From positions 6,310 through 70,309 of the forward strand of contig NZ_SOFP01000040.1 of assembly GCF_004402785.1 (NCBI RefSeq): 64,000 nucleotides of DNA, given 5' to 3'. Made by a program: the position numbers and the translations under genes. Position 1 is the stretch's first letter, and every line of letters begins with the position of its first letter. This document shows, in pieces, positions 4,740 to 9,646 of the stretch. The notes below the pieces were generated by a model that saw only the letters and a program-made list of their open reading frames with translations, was not told the DNA's origin and ran no database searches. The stretch is from Cryobacterium algoritolerans (lineage in GTDB: Bacteria; Actinomycetota; Actinomycetes; Actinomycetales; Microbacteriaceae).

Positions 4740-5423
4740 TCACTCAGCGTACTTGCCCCGCGCCCGGATGAATGCCCACCGGCCCGCACTCAAGCCGCGG
4801 CGGATGCTCGTCGGCCCGCGTTCGTCGTCGAACTCGAGCATGAGCAGCGGCCGGCGCATCGATACCCGAACCCGGCCGAAGACCACCCGGAGCACGGCGA
4901 GGTAGGGGCGGAGCAGCCGGCGCAGTCGCCGCTCCGGAAGGTCGATGCCGACCTGGATCGTGACGGTGGCGACCCGGCGTTCCCGGGCGGCGAGCTCGGT
5001 GACCGTGGCGGTCGAACCCGGCGCGGTGGCGATCGAACCGGTGGTCGTGGCGATCTGACCCGCTGCCGCACCTCCCGATCCAGCCGTGGCGGCGAGGTTT
5101 GGGGGGGTGCGGCCGGGCCCGGCCTGGCCGGCCGGGCGGTTTAGGAGGTTCGGGCCGGAGCTGGTCCGGGCTGTGCCGTCGGCGACCTGCACGACAAGGC
5201 TGCATGGGTCGAATCCGCGGGCCGAGCAGATCGCCCCGATGAGCGCCGTTATCGCCACCCGGTGATCCGCGGTGAAGGCTGTTGCCCGATGCTCCGGGTC
5301 GGCCACGACAAGCAGCGGTGTGGTTCCACGCTCGCGCAGGCCCGTGCGTTCGCGGTCGACCACCGCGTCCAGCCAGGTCTTGTCGATGTCGCGCACGAGT
5401 TCCTTGCGCAGCGCGCCGGCCAG
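4740..5423 (-). pseudogene. C-terminal part of split kinase-like protein, beyond an amber stop
   Basis: This stretch is in the same reading frame as the membrane-protein gene at 5424-6206 and is separated from it only by a single TAG at 5424-5426; the frame then runs on for about 227 codons. The N-terminal piece ALRKELVRDIDKTWLD and the block TPLLVVADPEHRATAFT resemble, by position, the cytoplasmic tail of the fused kinase (727-3069). The middle contains an Ala/Thr/Gly-rich linker with TATTTGSIATAPGSTAT-like low complexity. The first start codon after the stop is a GTG at 5396, so a separately translated protein is possible. Either the upstream gene was cut by a nonsense mutation, or the stop is read through, or these are two genes. 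No catalytic motif is visible. Confidence 0.55.
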
Positions 5424-6206
5424 CTAGCCGGACCGGATGATGTCGGCCCTGGTGACCTCACCGTGGTCGAGAACGCCGGTCAGAAGCGGGAAGACGCCGG
5501 CTCCGAGGCTCGCCCACTGTTGCTCGACCACGGCGCGGACGACATGGCCCCTGCTCTCTTCGGTGCGGGCGGCCATGGCGCGACGGGCATCCGTCTGCCA
5601 GGTCAACAGCAACCGCACGATACGGCGAGAGTACGCGGCACCGGCGAGCGCGGGTGCCAGCACCTGGCTGACCGCCACGATCACGTAGATCTGCGGCGGC
5701 ACGACGATGCTGAGGAACGGCGCCTGGGGCACGGTGACGGCGGCCACGACTGCGCCCGCGACCGACCCGGAGAGAGCGATCTCCCGCCACGGCCGGTAGG
5801 GCGCGAGCGCGAGCAGGAGCAGTCCGATGCTGAGCGGACCGAAGTCGTCCTGGATCAAGGTGTTGTGGCCCCAGCGGGCGGCCTGGTCGAGCAGGTGCGC
5901 CGAGACGGCGAGGCCGACCATGACCAGGTGCAGGGGCCGGTCGAACGGCGCGTGGTCGGGCCGGCTCGCGGCCACGAGGGTACCGGCCGCGGCAACAGAT
6001 GCCACGATGGCGAGCACGGAGAGCAGCGGATGCTGGATCTGGCCGGCCTGCAGCGCCGTGCTGGTGGCCGCGTAGGCGACCACGATCAGCGCGACCACGG
6101 GCGCGAGCGGCCAGGCAGCGAGGGCGCCGAGCGGGTCGAGTCTCTGCTGGGTGAGGGTGCCCTGTTGAGCGTGGGGCCGCGGCTGAGCGAGGGGTGTGAC
6201 GGTCAT
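5424..6206 (-). CDS. Membrane protein of split sensor-kinase module
   Basis: The 260-residue product has about five hydrophobic segments between residues 30 and 190, followed by a cytoplasmic helix-rich region (YSRRIVRLLLTWQTDARRAMAART) that ends abruptly at an amber codon. Its ATG at 6206 overlaps the stop of the upstream kinase gene (ATGA), so the two are translationally coupled. Its layout (short N-terminus, five membrane helices, basic helix, ADIIRSG end) matches residues about 450-640 of the fused kinase at 727-3069. I infer it is the second half of a sensor complex. The abrupt end and the open frame after the TAG suggest the natural protein was about 490 residues. Confidence 0.65.
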   Translation of the reverse strand: MTVTPLAQPRPHAQQGTLTQQRLDPLGALAAWPLAPVVALIVVAYAATSTALQAGQIQHPLLSVLAIVASVAAAGTLVAASRPDHAPFDRPLHLVMVGLAVSAHLLDQAARWGHNTLIQDDFGPLSIGLLLLALAPYRPWREIALSGSVAGAVVAAVTVPQAPFLSIVVPPQIYVIVAVSQVLAPALAGAAYSRRIVRLLLTWQTDARRAMAARTEESRGHVVRAVVEQQWASLGAGVFPLLTGVLDHGEVTRADIIRSG

Positions 6207-7429
6207 CGTGTGCCCTGACCGTCCGGGGCTGCGGCGGGGGCTGCGGCGGGCACACTCAGCAGTACCGACGTGCCGGCGTCTGGCCGGGTCAGGACCGTCA
6301 CCGATCCGCCGAGCCGCTTGATCCGTCGGCGCACCGCCTGGCGGAGGCCGAGCCGGTCGGCACCGGTCTCCGACTCCGTGAAGCCACGGCCGGCATCCAT
6401 CACCATTACCGAAAAGATGCCGCCGTCGCCGCCGATGTCGACCTCGGCTGACACAATCCCCGCGTGCAGGATCACGTTGATCAGGCACTGTTGCACGGCC
6501 AGGCCCAGCTCACGGTCGACCACGGGGTCGAGGCGGCCGAGCGCGGACCGGTCACCGATGACGTCGACCACGAGTCCCCGATCGCGGCACCGCTCAATCG
6601 CCAGGTAGACCTCGCTGGTGAGCCAGGCATCCGCCCCGGGAGAATGGGAGACGCGGTGAGCGTCGGCGTCGGTCAGCCAGTCGGTGCCGCGCAGCCTGTG
6701 CAGGGCGGCGCGGATGCTGCCGGACAGGTTCTCCGTGAGCGGGCCGGCGCGGGCCCGGGACAGGGCAATCAGCTCGTTGAGGGTGGTGTCCTGGTTAAGG
6801 TCCAGGGCGCGCAAGTCGAGGTCCTGACGGAGGAGACGGGACTGATCGGCGTGCACCGCCCGGTGGATCGCGGACTGGGCGGCACGGTGCGGACGACGGG
6901 CGGTGCCGGCGAGCAGCAGCACGGCGACGAGGAACAGGCAGGCGGAGATGGTGAACCCGTCGGGCAGGTAGGTCACCTCGGCTTCCGCCGCGGCGATCAC
7001 CGTGACGGTCTCGGCCAGCACAAACCCGGCCGTGCTCCAGAGCACCCCGGTGAGCGCACCGGAGCCGGCTCCGCCGACCATGATCAGCGCCAGCTTGGGC
7101 AGCGCGGCGAGGAACATGTTGGACGCGGGGAAGACGTCGGGCAGGCCGAGCAGGTCAGTCGTGTACAGGTAGGTGCCGCCGGTGCCGACCAGGAGGTAGG
7201 CGATGGTGAGCACAACCGTGGGTCGCAGGCTGAGGGTGACGAGGAGCGCGGCCATGGCGAGGACCGAGAGTACGGCCATCCAGAGCAGGCCGGCCTCGTA
7301 GGTAAGGCCCAGGGACAGGGCCGAGAGCAGGGCGCCGGCGAGGCAGGTGAGGGCGAACCAGTGCGATGCGCGCGCAAGCGCACGACTCAGGATCGGTTCG
7401 ACCAGGTGGTCGGGCAAACCCAAGGTCAT
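6203..7429 (-). CDS. Sensor-kinase-like protein with HATPase domain, no clear phosphoacceptor His
   Basis: The 408-residue protein has six to seven membrane segments in the first 180 residues and an HATPase domain near the C-terminus: N-box AVQQCLINVILHAG, D-box VMDAGRGF and G-box RPDAGTSV. In the helix where the fused paralogue has ALVHDSV, this protein has LNELIALSRARAG, with no His. That means it may not autophosphorylate in the usual way, or it works with its neighbour. No response regulator gene is next to it. The ATG at 7429 has a strong AGGAGG site seven bases upstream. It heads an apparent operon with the membrane protein at 5424-6206. Confidence 0.75.
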   Translation of the reverse strand: MTLGLPDHLVEPILSRALARASHWFALTCLAGALLSALSLGLTYEAGLLWMAVLSVLAMAALLVTLSLRPTVVLTIAYLLVGTGGTYLYTTDLLGLPDVFPASNMFLAALPKLALIMVGGAGSGALTGVLWSTAGFVLAETVTVIAAAEAEVTYLPDGFTISACLFLVAVLLLAGTARRPHRAAQSAIHRAVHADQSRLLRQDLDLRALDLNQDTTLNELIALSRARAGPLTENLSGSIRAALHRLRGTDWLTDADAHRVSHSPGADAWLTSEVYLAIERCRDRGLVVDVIGDRSALGRLDPVVDRELGLAVQQCLINVILHAGIVSAEVDIGGDGGIFSVMVMDAGRGFTESETGADRLGLRQAVRRRIKRLGGSVTVLTRPDAGTSVLLSVPAAAPAAAPDGQGTR

Positions 7430-7611
7430 CGGGGCCTCCTCTGCCTTGGTTGAGTATTCCACGCAGCCGGGAAGCGCGGCGGAAGAATTCGCCGGTCAGG
7501 TCACATGAACGCGAGCGCGGGCAGTGCGGCGGGATGCGGGCTGCGACGCGGGCGACTGCGGCAACGGAGACCGCGCGGGCAGGCGCTGCGCCGGGCATCC
7601 GTTCGTGACGG

Positions 7612-9646
7612 TCAGAACAGGGTGGGCGCCAGCTCAGGAGGGAGTTCCTCCGCGATCAGGGACCGCCGGGTTCGGGCGGACGCTGCGGACCGTACCGGGG
7701 CGTCCGGGAGCCCGAAGGCGAGGATGCCGGGGTTTCCACCGGCGCGGATTGCGGAGGTGGGGATTGCGGCGTCAGGATTGCCGGACTGCAGGCGGCTGCG
7801 GGCGCTCGAGCGCACGCCGCAGGTCGCGGTATCTTCCCGGCCGCGCTCGAGGCCGTGCGCGCGGATCAGCGGCTTGATTCGCGCCGCCAGCCAGATCCGG
7901 TACACCTTCGGGGCGTACGCGGCCGTCGCGTACAGCTCCTGGTAGCGCGGCATCAACTCGGGGTGGTCGCGGGCCGGCCACTGCAGGTACCAGTCCTTGA
8001 CCTCGGGGCGCAGGTGCAGCGCGGTATACATGATGTTCGACGCGCCGGCCGCCTTCGCCTGGCACAGCGCGGCATCCAGGTGCGCCTTCGGGTCGGTGAG
8101 GAACGGCAGGATCGGCAGGATCGGCATCATGAACACCGAACAGTCGACCCCGCGCTCGCGCACCGCGGTAGCGGCCCTCCGCCCGCTGGTACGGGTCGGT
8201 GTTCGTGCCGAGGGCCACCGGATGCCGGCCCCAGCTCGGTTTCGCCAGCTCCTTCCGCAGGACCTCGGCCACGTTGACCTTCACGATGATCTCGTTGTTG
8301 AAGTCTTTGCCGGAATCGAGTTCGAGGTAGGTGTGCGTGGGCCGGGCAAAACAGTTGTGGCTGATGACACCGTTCGCGATGAAATCGCCGGTACCGGTCG
8401 TGATGTCGATCATGTCCATCGTTGTGCCCAGGTCCTCAATGGACACGATCTGCAACTTTGCCGCCGACTTGACTGCGGCGCCGGCGCCGGCGATGGAGAG
8501 TTCCCGGTCGATGGCGGGCCCGACCAGGCTGAAGAACCGAGAGCGCATGGGCAGCCCGCCGGTGACCCGAACGCAGCGGACCCCATTCGGCCGGGCATTC
8601 TCCAGCACGTGGACGATGCCCACAGCAAACATCGAGCCCCGGATGTTGTCGAGAATTGCCTCATCTTTGTTGCTGATCCGCAGAATACCCTTAGAGCACG
8701 AACCCTCGGCGTCGAAAACACCGGCCAGATACCCGGCGTGCCAGTCGCCGTCGGGGTCTCGCGGCCACTGGATGAGCTCGGTGATCCGGTCATCAAAAGA
8801 CGCCTTGCCGGAGTGGATGGAGGTACGGGGGCGCCGGCTGACGGATGCCGCCGAGAACGGCCGGGTCTGAGTGCCCACTCCCTCCTGGCCGAGGAACAAA
8901 CGAGATCGGTTGAGGGCCTCGATGTCGGTCAGGGCGAGCCGGAAATGCCGTACCTTGCCTCCGCCGCCTGTGCGCCGGGGGTAGCCCCGAGCGATCACCA
9001 TCCCGTCGCCACGAATCATTCCGGTCAAGTATCCGCGCCGATAGCTCGGCTCGAAATACTTCGGCTGCGTGGCCTCCGTCAGCCCGGTGAGCCCGAAGCC
9101 CATCAGCATGTTGTTCATGGTCAGATAGGGCCGCTGCCCGTCCCCGCTCATGGCGCCCGTGACGAACTTCCACCCCCGCTCGGTGAGGAAGCGATGGTCG
9201 CCACTGGCCACCACTTCGGTTTCATCCGCGAGGGTGATGCGATAGCCGCTTTTGCGGGTATTCCACGAAGCGAGCACCGTCGTCTTCACGTATCGCCGAT
9301 ATGCGCCCACGGTCACAGTGCCGATGATGCCCTCGCCAACCCTGACCTCCCAAAGTGGCTTCTGCCGACCATCCGCCATCAGGATGAGCGTTTCCGGGCT
9401 CAGAGAATAGGAGCAGGCATGAGAGCAGCCCCGGTAGGGGTTGATGGTCCAGCCGAACGGCATCGCGCTCTGGCCGGGCACCCGATTGAGCACCGACTTG
9501 GCGAGCACCTCGTGAAAGACGATCCCCGCGAACTCGGGCGTGCGTACGCTGCGCACGAGGTTGTTCAGCGGGCCAGCCCGGGCAGCGCGCCGGCCTGCTC
9601 CGTGCTCAGTTCCTGTGCGTTCCACCTCATGCAAGTATTCGGACAC
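7612..9646 (-). pseudogene. Rv2578c-family radical SAM protein, intein-containing, internally deleted
   Basis: The first 80 residues and the sequence after the intein match the Rv2578c family of radical SAM proteins (NLVRSVRTPEFAGIVFHEVLAKS, NPYRGCSHAC, CFARPTHTYLELD, VALGTNTDPYQRAEGRYR). The iron-sulfur motif CxxxCxxC is formed only after intein removal. After GRYR (about base 8168) the frame changes: the original frame runs into unrelated residues, while the continuation RERGVDCSVFMMPILPFLTD lies in another frame and ends with the family-typical TLF at 7612. From memory of the family, about 70-75 codons of the barrel, including the SILTKG region, are missing. I therefore call the gene broken. 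A GTG at 9646 is the probable start. A sequencing or assembly deletion cannot be excluded. Confidence 0.75.
8354..9406 (-). other. Intein with LAGLIDADG homing endonuclease
   Basis: The 351-residue insert begins with Ser (SLSPETLIL, splicing block A) right after GCSHACSY and ends with GVISHN, followed by Cys+1 of the host protein. The penultimate His and terminal Asn needed for C-terminal cleavage are present, and an ASGDHRFLT segment fits the block B TxxH-type motif. Two dodecapeptide motifs, YLTGMIRGDGM and YLAGVFDAEGS, about 100 residues apart, identify a LAGLIDADG homing endonuclease. The insertion point places the third cluster cysteine of the radical SAM motif as the +1 residue. The intein frame is open from end to end, in contrast to the damaged host gene. 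Confidence 0.88.

Follow-up and report, generated by a model that had tools for sequence, protein, structure and literature searches.

A probably non-splicing intein at its family's usual site in a broken Rv2578c-family radical SAM gene of Cryobacterium

The curated NCBIfam model NF038136 is named 'intein-containing Rv2578c family radical SAM protein'. MoaA is also a radical SAM enzyme. In the intein of Pyrococcus abyssi MoaA a disulfide between Cys-3 and Cys1 controls splicing, according to the available parts of two papers (PMC3922620, PMC10663303). Class 1 inteins are described, in the portion of the source at hand, as having Cys or Ser at position 1, a block B His, a terminal His-Asn and Cys, Ser or Thr at position +1, with Ser1 permitted in the class generally (PMC4031507). 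The outcomes given for Ser1 in the accessible text of two further papers differ: C1S substitution inactivated several inteins (PMC10189870), GOS-TerL is a natural, working intein with the pair Ser1/Cys+1 (PMC11766414, PMC10189870), and the same pair renders the closest GOS-TerL homologue inactive (PMC11766414). In the excerpted text of one of them an NX histidine marks Ser1 inteins, and GOS-TerL is listed without it (PMC10189870). Arth_1007 of Arthrobacter FB24 is presented, in the available part of the paper, as the first decayed intein pseudogene known to its authors to be retained in a genome (Tori and Perler 2011, PMC3196547). A literature search that covered few subscription journals returned, among the matches listed, no intein in an Rv2578c-family protein or in a radical SAM cluster motif.

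In the window, by which we mean the whole 64,000-nucleotide stretch of Cryobacterium DNA that was analysed, an intein occupies exactly positions 8354-9406 of the reverse strand, within the CxxxCxxC motif of an Rv2578c-family radical SAM gene. The insert is an open frame of 351 amino acids contained in a longer one (7772-9646, reverse strand, 624 amino acids) that starts with GTG at 9646; its first residues are SLSPETL and its last FIANGVISHN, with NPYRGCSHACSY upstream and CFARPTHTYL downstream. The insertion point reads GCSHACSY / CFAR, which confirms the earlier note's statement that motif cysteines 1 and 2 belong to the N-extein (CSHAC, 9413-9427, reverse strand, the second being Cys-3) and that the third is Cys+1 (8351-8353, reverse strand); the intein thus precedes the third cysteine, as in the NF038136 allele. 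In profile searches the intein alone matched NF038136 at E 1.4e-63 and the whole frame at E 9.5e-143, with the model spanning both intein junctions. Together, the flanks, the NF038136 match and the empty site of a related genome (G020, see below) bear out the placement of the intein inside the CxxxCxxC motif of an Rv2578c-family radical SAM protein.

The window intein has no stop and carries Ser1, the block B His (in GDHRF), a block F Asp, the terminal His-Asn (8354-8359, reverse strand; within an SHN end), Cys+1 and two LAGLIDADG-type motifs, the features of a class 1 LAGLIDADG intein. The first motif, GYLTGMIRGDG (9002-9034, reverse strand), was read by eye; no separate Pfam match falls on it, and the aligned full-length inteins conserve it. 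The second, GYLAGVFDAEG (8702-8734, reverse strand), falls within the match to Pfam LAGLIDADG_3 (PF14528; 27.4 bits, cut-off 22.5), which covers intein residues 221-271. Scores for the intein N-terminal region (TIGR01445, 20.6 bits) and for Pfam Intein_splicing (25.9 bits) lie below their cut-offs of 24.5 and 35.8, respectively. A search of solved structures with the intein gave weak matches only, to inteins (best E 0.0025) and to antibody light chains, the latter presumably by chance. A 6-base in-frame tandem duplication (8471-8491, reverse strand) gives the intein two residues beyond the other aligned inteins. The insert is an intein.

To compare the locus with its family, 103 distinct inteins, that of the window included, were extracted from 182 loci by a sequence pattern that demanded GCxxxC-x-Y/F before the intein and Asn-Cys-x-Ala-Arg/His at its end and left the first residue and the residue before the Asn free, so that the shared site and Cys+1 hold by construction among these 103. 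His precedes the Asn in 103 of 103. The 37 loci without an extracted intein comprise 36 empty-site loci (G020 counted twice) and one weak match, L027. A stricter pattern left out ten loci with an intein match, of which nine fit on reading and the tenth was L027. Apart from this weak match, every one of the 182 loci that matches the intein carries it at the same bond, mini-inteins included; the reading of the site as an unusual one is therefore rejected. The earlier note had reserved the question whether the site is the usual one for an alignment with other Rv2578c-family inteins, and the answer is yes: the insertion site is the ordinary one for the intein-bearing Rv2578c family. Record titles of the intein loci include Cryobacterium, Microbacterium, Agromyces, Promicromonospora, Nesterenkonia, Blastococcus and others.

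Within Cryobacterium the intein is present in 12 of 57 genomes (that of the window included), nine times at full length and three times as a mini-intein of 158-162 amino acids, and the site is empty in 35 of the 47 genomes with a match to the gene. The gene of G020 has an empty site, and its flanks, the adjoining mqo included, align with those of the window to either side. The mini-inteins (L010, L011 and L012, in G016, G015 and G055) lack an endonuclease part and occupy the same site, and their host genes score above the family cut-off. Some loci stand out by their record titles. L122 and L124, titled Bordetella parapertussis (MAG) and Proteobacteria bacterium, have an intein of the same kind at the same site, with extein motifs that differ from most others (NPYQGCEHGCIY and NPYRGCESGCVY); L122 may be a misassigned bin. 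L072, titled Stenotrophomonas maltophilia P13, has an actinobacterial-looking intein and extein, the intein being 55% identical to that of the window, which suggests a contaminating contig.

In marked contrast to its family, the window intein begins with Ser, encoded by TCT (9404-9406, reverse strand). Residue 1 is Cys in 102 of the 103 distinct inteins (99 TGC, 3 TGT), and all of the other 11 intein-bearing Cryobacterium genomes have TGC, from which TCT differs at two bases. Cys1 characterises the family as sampled in this analysis and is no part of the NF038136 definition; with one occurrence in 103, Ser1 was rejected as a common variant of the family. When the 69 full-length inteins were aligned, the window intein departed from two otherwise invariant columns, the others departing from 0-5. 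The earlier note had reported the LAGLIDADG motifs and all splicing residues to be present. This holds for the motifs, the His-Asn end and Cys+1; as regards Ser1, which class 1 formally allows, the statement is misleading given Cys1 in 102 of 103. Ser in place of Cys1 probably stops or greatly slows the first splicing step, and the window intein is, judged from its sequence, probably non-splicing.

The host gene is broken on both sides of the intein. On the N-extein side the stretch at 9407-9558 (all extein coordinates are on the reverse strand) is still in frame with the intein; at 9559-9579 the frame shifts relative to four relatives (G020, G040, G048 and G002), and the native-like frame stops there. 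A native-like start, ATG at 9630, opens a frame of 21 codons that then meets a stop (9565-9630), and the GTG at 9646 is unlike the native start, eight aligned relatives having MRW... there. On the other side, the C-extein after Cys+1 is in frame with the intein at 8170-8350 and then reaches the junction of a 221-base deletion (8166-8169), defined by comparison with G020, G040 and G048, which carry the word ACCG at either end of the sequence absent here; the loss may have arisen by short-repeat deletion between these ACCG words. Since 221 is not a multiple of three, the C-extein frame shifts at the deletion, and the remaining C-extein (7612-8163, matching NF038135 positions 216-316) is out of frame with the intein. 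It also contains a 9-base in-frame tandem duplication (8104-8124).

These lesions are reflected in the profile scores. A functional gene would have a complete, in-frame NF038135 domain; the best score in the window reaches 215.8 bits where the cut-off is 430, with about positions 141-215 absent and the rest out of frame. The whole protein scores 477.1 bits against NF038136, short of the cut-off of 700, and the match extends no further than position 397 of the 574 in the model, the point at which the C-extein is interrupted. The family cut-off is exceeded in 45 of the 57 Cryobacterium genomes, that of the window counted among the 57; the window gene reaches about half of it, in two out-of-frame pieces. 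Among the 103 distinct inteins, that of the window is alone in being followed by a C-extein frame of less than 220 amino acids. A profile search of its own genome for a second copy of the host gene found just two pieces, both of this locus, and a second intact copy is thereby rejected. In 10 of the 57 Cryobacterium genomes no match to an Rv2578c-family gene was found at E 1e-5, so the gene appears dispensable. The earlier note's picture of a working enzyme that depends on splicing is accordingly unsupported for this copy, with Ser1 for Cys1 and a C-extein that lacks 221 bases and is frameshifted. We also came across an empty-site copy in G007 (L153) that consists of two overlapping out-of-frame pieces; this is a single-contig genome with a completeness of 83, which makes sequencing errors likely, and it was rejected as a second natural pseudogene.

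Polarised extein changes bear on the age of the decay. The ratio of nonsynonymous to synonymous changes is 10:15 in the window and 2:10, 2:12 and 8:33 in G020, G040 and G048, respectively; window against pooled relatives (12:55) gives a one-sided Fisher p of 0.029, in a comparison that was chosen after the fact. This is consistent with a gene that was constrained over most of its branch and released recently. Extein tip lengths (0.053 in the window, 0.026 in G020, 0.029 in G040 and 0.084 in G048, whose gene is intact) do not settle the age of the decay. The intein itself gives no comparable signal, its dN/dS being hardly raised (0.144 for window-G002 against 0.136 for G002-G051). This counts against recent decay, as do the open intein frame with its retained motifs and catalytic residues, its departure from just two invariant columns, and an extein tip shorter than that of the intact G048 gene. 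In simulations of 1,500 runs per substitution count, the 351-codon frame stayed stop-free in 0.80 of runs at 10 neutral substitutions and in 0.64 at 20, so the open intein frame needs no selection and was rejected as proof of it; it would fit recent death rather than selection.

The synonymous divergences of inteins and exteins disagree, and the inteins therefore appear to move between alleles of the gene, as a homing element would. In G004, G041 and G031 (L005, L006 and L007) the intein dS is 0.016-0.031 and the extein dS 0.17-0.27, and these near-identical inteins look like a sign of recent homing or gene conversion; between G042 and G004 the relation at synonymous sites is reversed (intein 1.53, extein 0.36). 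The window extein forms a group with G020, G040 and G048, whose genes have the site empty, at a bootstrap of 97, and pairs with G048 at 84; the window intein, among 15 compared, is closest to those of G002 and G051. As dS from G002 is similar for intein (0.69) and extein (0.80), either an old inheritance followed by loss in the sisters or a horizontal gain could account for the window intein.

Overall, we consider it likely that the window intein is a copy of a known, mobile LAGLIDADG element that has decayed only recently; the fixed insertion point of this element is one bond inside the CxxxCxxC motif of Rv2578c-family radical SAM genes. In working relatives, going by class 1 intein chemistry, Cys1 would attack the upstream bond, Cys+1 would take over the N-extein, and Asn would cyclise and the exteins join, while the endonuclease would cut empty alleles and the intein be copied in. 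In the window, Ser1 replaces Cys1, by which the first step would probably be stopped or greatly slowed. Separately from this change, the start frame of the host gene is gone, and so are 221 bases of the C-extein. With these parts lost, even perfect splicing could not yield a radical SAM enzyme, and the precursor is presumably expressed little or not at all. A reading that we hold to be improbable is that the intein is still active and that only the host gene is dead, with Ser1 and Cys+1 supporting slow class 1 splicing through an oxyester, as in GOS-TerL. The other catalytic residues are indeed kept, and a natural Ser1/Cys+1 intein does splice in the accounts available to us (PMC11766414, PMC10189870); yet the window alone has Ser where 102 of 103 distinct family inteins have Cys, the same accounts report that the pair makes the closest GOS-TerL homologue inactive (PMC11766414) and that C1S inactivated several inteins (PMC10189870), and the exteins seem to retain no function through which splicing could be selected.

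The lesions could instead be sequencing or assembly errors in a draft genome whose true gene is intact and has a normal intein. The assembly (3,715,409 bases) is in 87 contigs, an error could account for a small shift or for a single codon, and the ends of the deletion share a 4-base word; against this, completeness is 100 and contamination 0.92, TCT is two bases away from the TGC of the 11 other intein-bearing Cryobacterium genomes, and the 221-base deletion, the 9- and 6-base duplications and the raised nonsynonymous share all occur together in one gene. The lesions cluster in the Rv2578c-family gene, with mqo and a sensor-kinase-like gene as the neighbours examined closely for comparison: the adjoining mqo is intact (507 of 507 residues, 96% to G020), and the sensor-kinase-like gene (6203-7462) is in one frame in the window and matches G002 in one frame and G020 (L154) in two, the frame shift thus appearing to belong to G020. 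The stretch at 4740-5396 aligns to G020 at 62% with four gaps. We regard errors as quite improbable. It is still more improbable that the locus is maintained as a free-standing homing endonuclease for which splicing and the host protein are no longer needed: the endonuclease part is open, both LAGLIDADG-type motifs are kept and relatives bear signs of recent movement, but the native-like start meets a stop, and chance alone would be expected to leave a frame open when few changes have occurred. The reading that we retain is that of a known intein allele at the family's ordinary site, whose first nucleophile has changed and whose host gene died recently.

The earlier note had also held that the enzyme cannot bind its cluster until it is spliced. 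The precursors of the 102 Cys1 inteins read CxxxCx[YF]C, in which the final Cys is Cys1 of the intein, and as Cys1 occupies the position of the third cysteine, CxxxCxxC is spelled both before and after splicing; the claim is thus unwarranted for the family, in which Cys1 stands in for the third cysteine, and would hold for the Ser1 copy alone. Capture of Cys1 by a 4Fe-4S cluster, or a Cys-3/Cys1 disulfide as in MoaA, might block the first step in the intact family and make the intein an iron-sulfur or redox gate, an idea that we think conceivable and on the whole unlikely. The window copy would have no such gate, because Ser1 replaces Cys1, and would, if the idea were true, be a natural loss of it. 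Since the precursor regains the cluster motif through Cys1, the intact relatives allow a test of whether splicing is under iron-sulfur or redox control.

How the locus compares with known systems can now be stated. Its striking insertion site is settled as the usual one of the family, and host family and intein are the same as in the NF038136 allele, from which the window differs in its score (477.1 against 700), in Ser1 and in its broken extein. With GOS-TerL it shares the residue pair Ser1 and Cys+1; according to the available text, GOS-TerL is natural, active and split, in which the window intein differs from it. The MoaA intein of Pyrococcus abyssi, as described in the portions of the papers at hand, shares the Cys-3/Cys1 spacing with the 102 Cys1 inteins in a different host protein, and a disulfide of this type is impossible in the window copy, where Cys1 is lost. 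Arth_1007, in the available part of its description, likewise has lost catalytic residues and lies at a locus without a working host protein; unlike the window intein, it belongs to class 3, its exteins total 66 residues and its failure to splice has been demonstrated (PMC3196547). For the window, the failure to splice is predicted from sequence, whereas its host family, its lesions and its close intact relatives are known. Compared with Arth_1007, the sole published intein pseudogene that we found and one without recognisable exteins in the text available (PMC3196547), the window therefore adds a known host family and close references, and shows an intein decaying along with its host gene in a genus that also contains intact, empty and mini-intein relatives.
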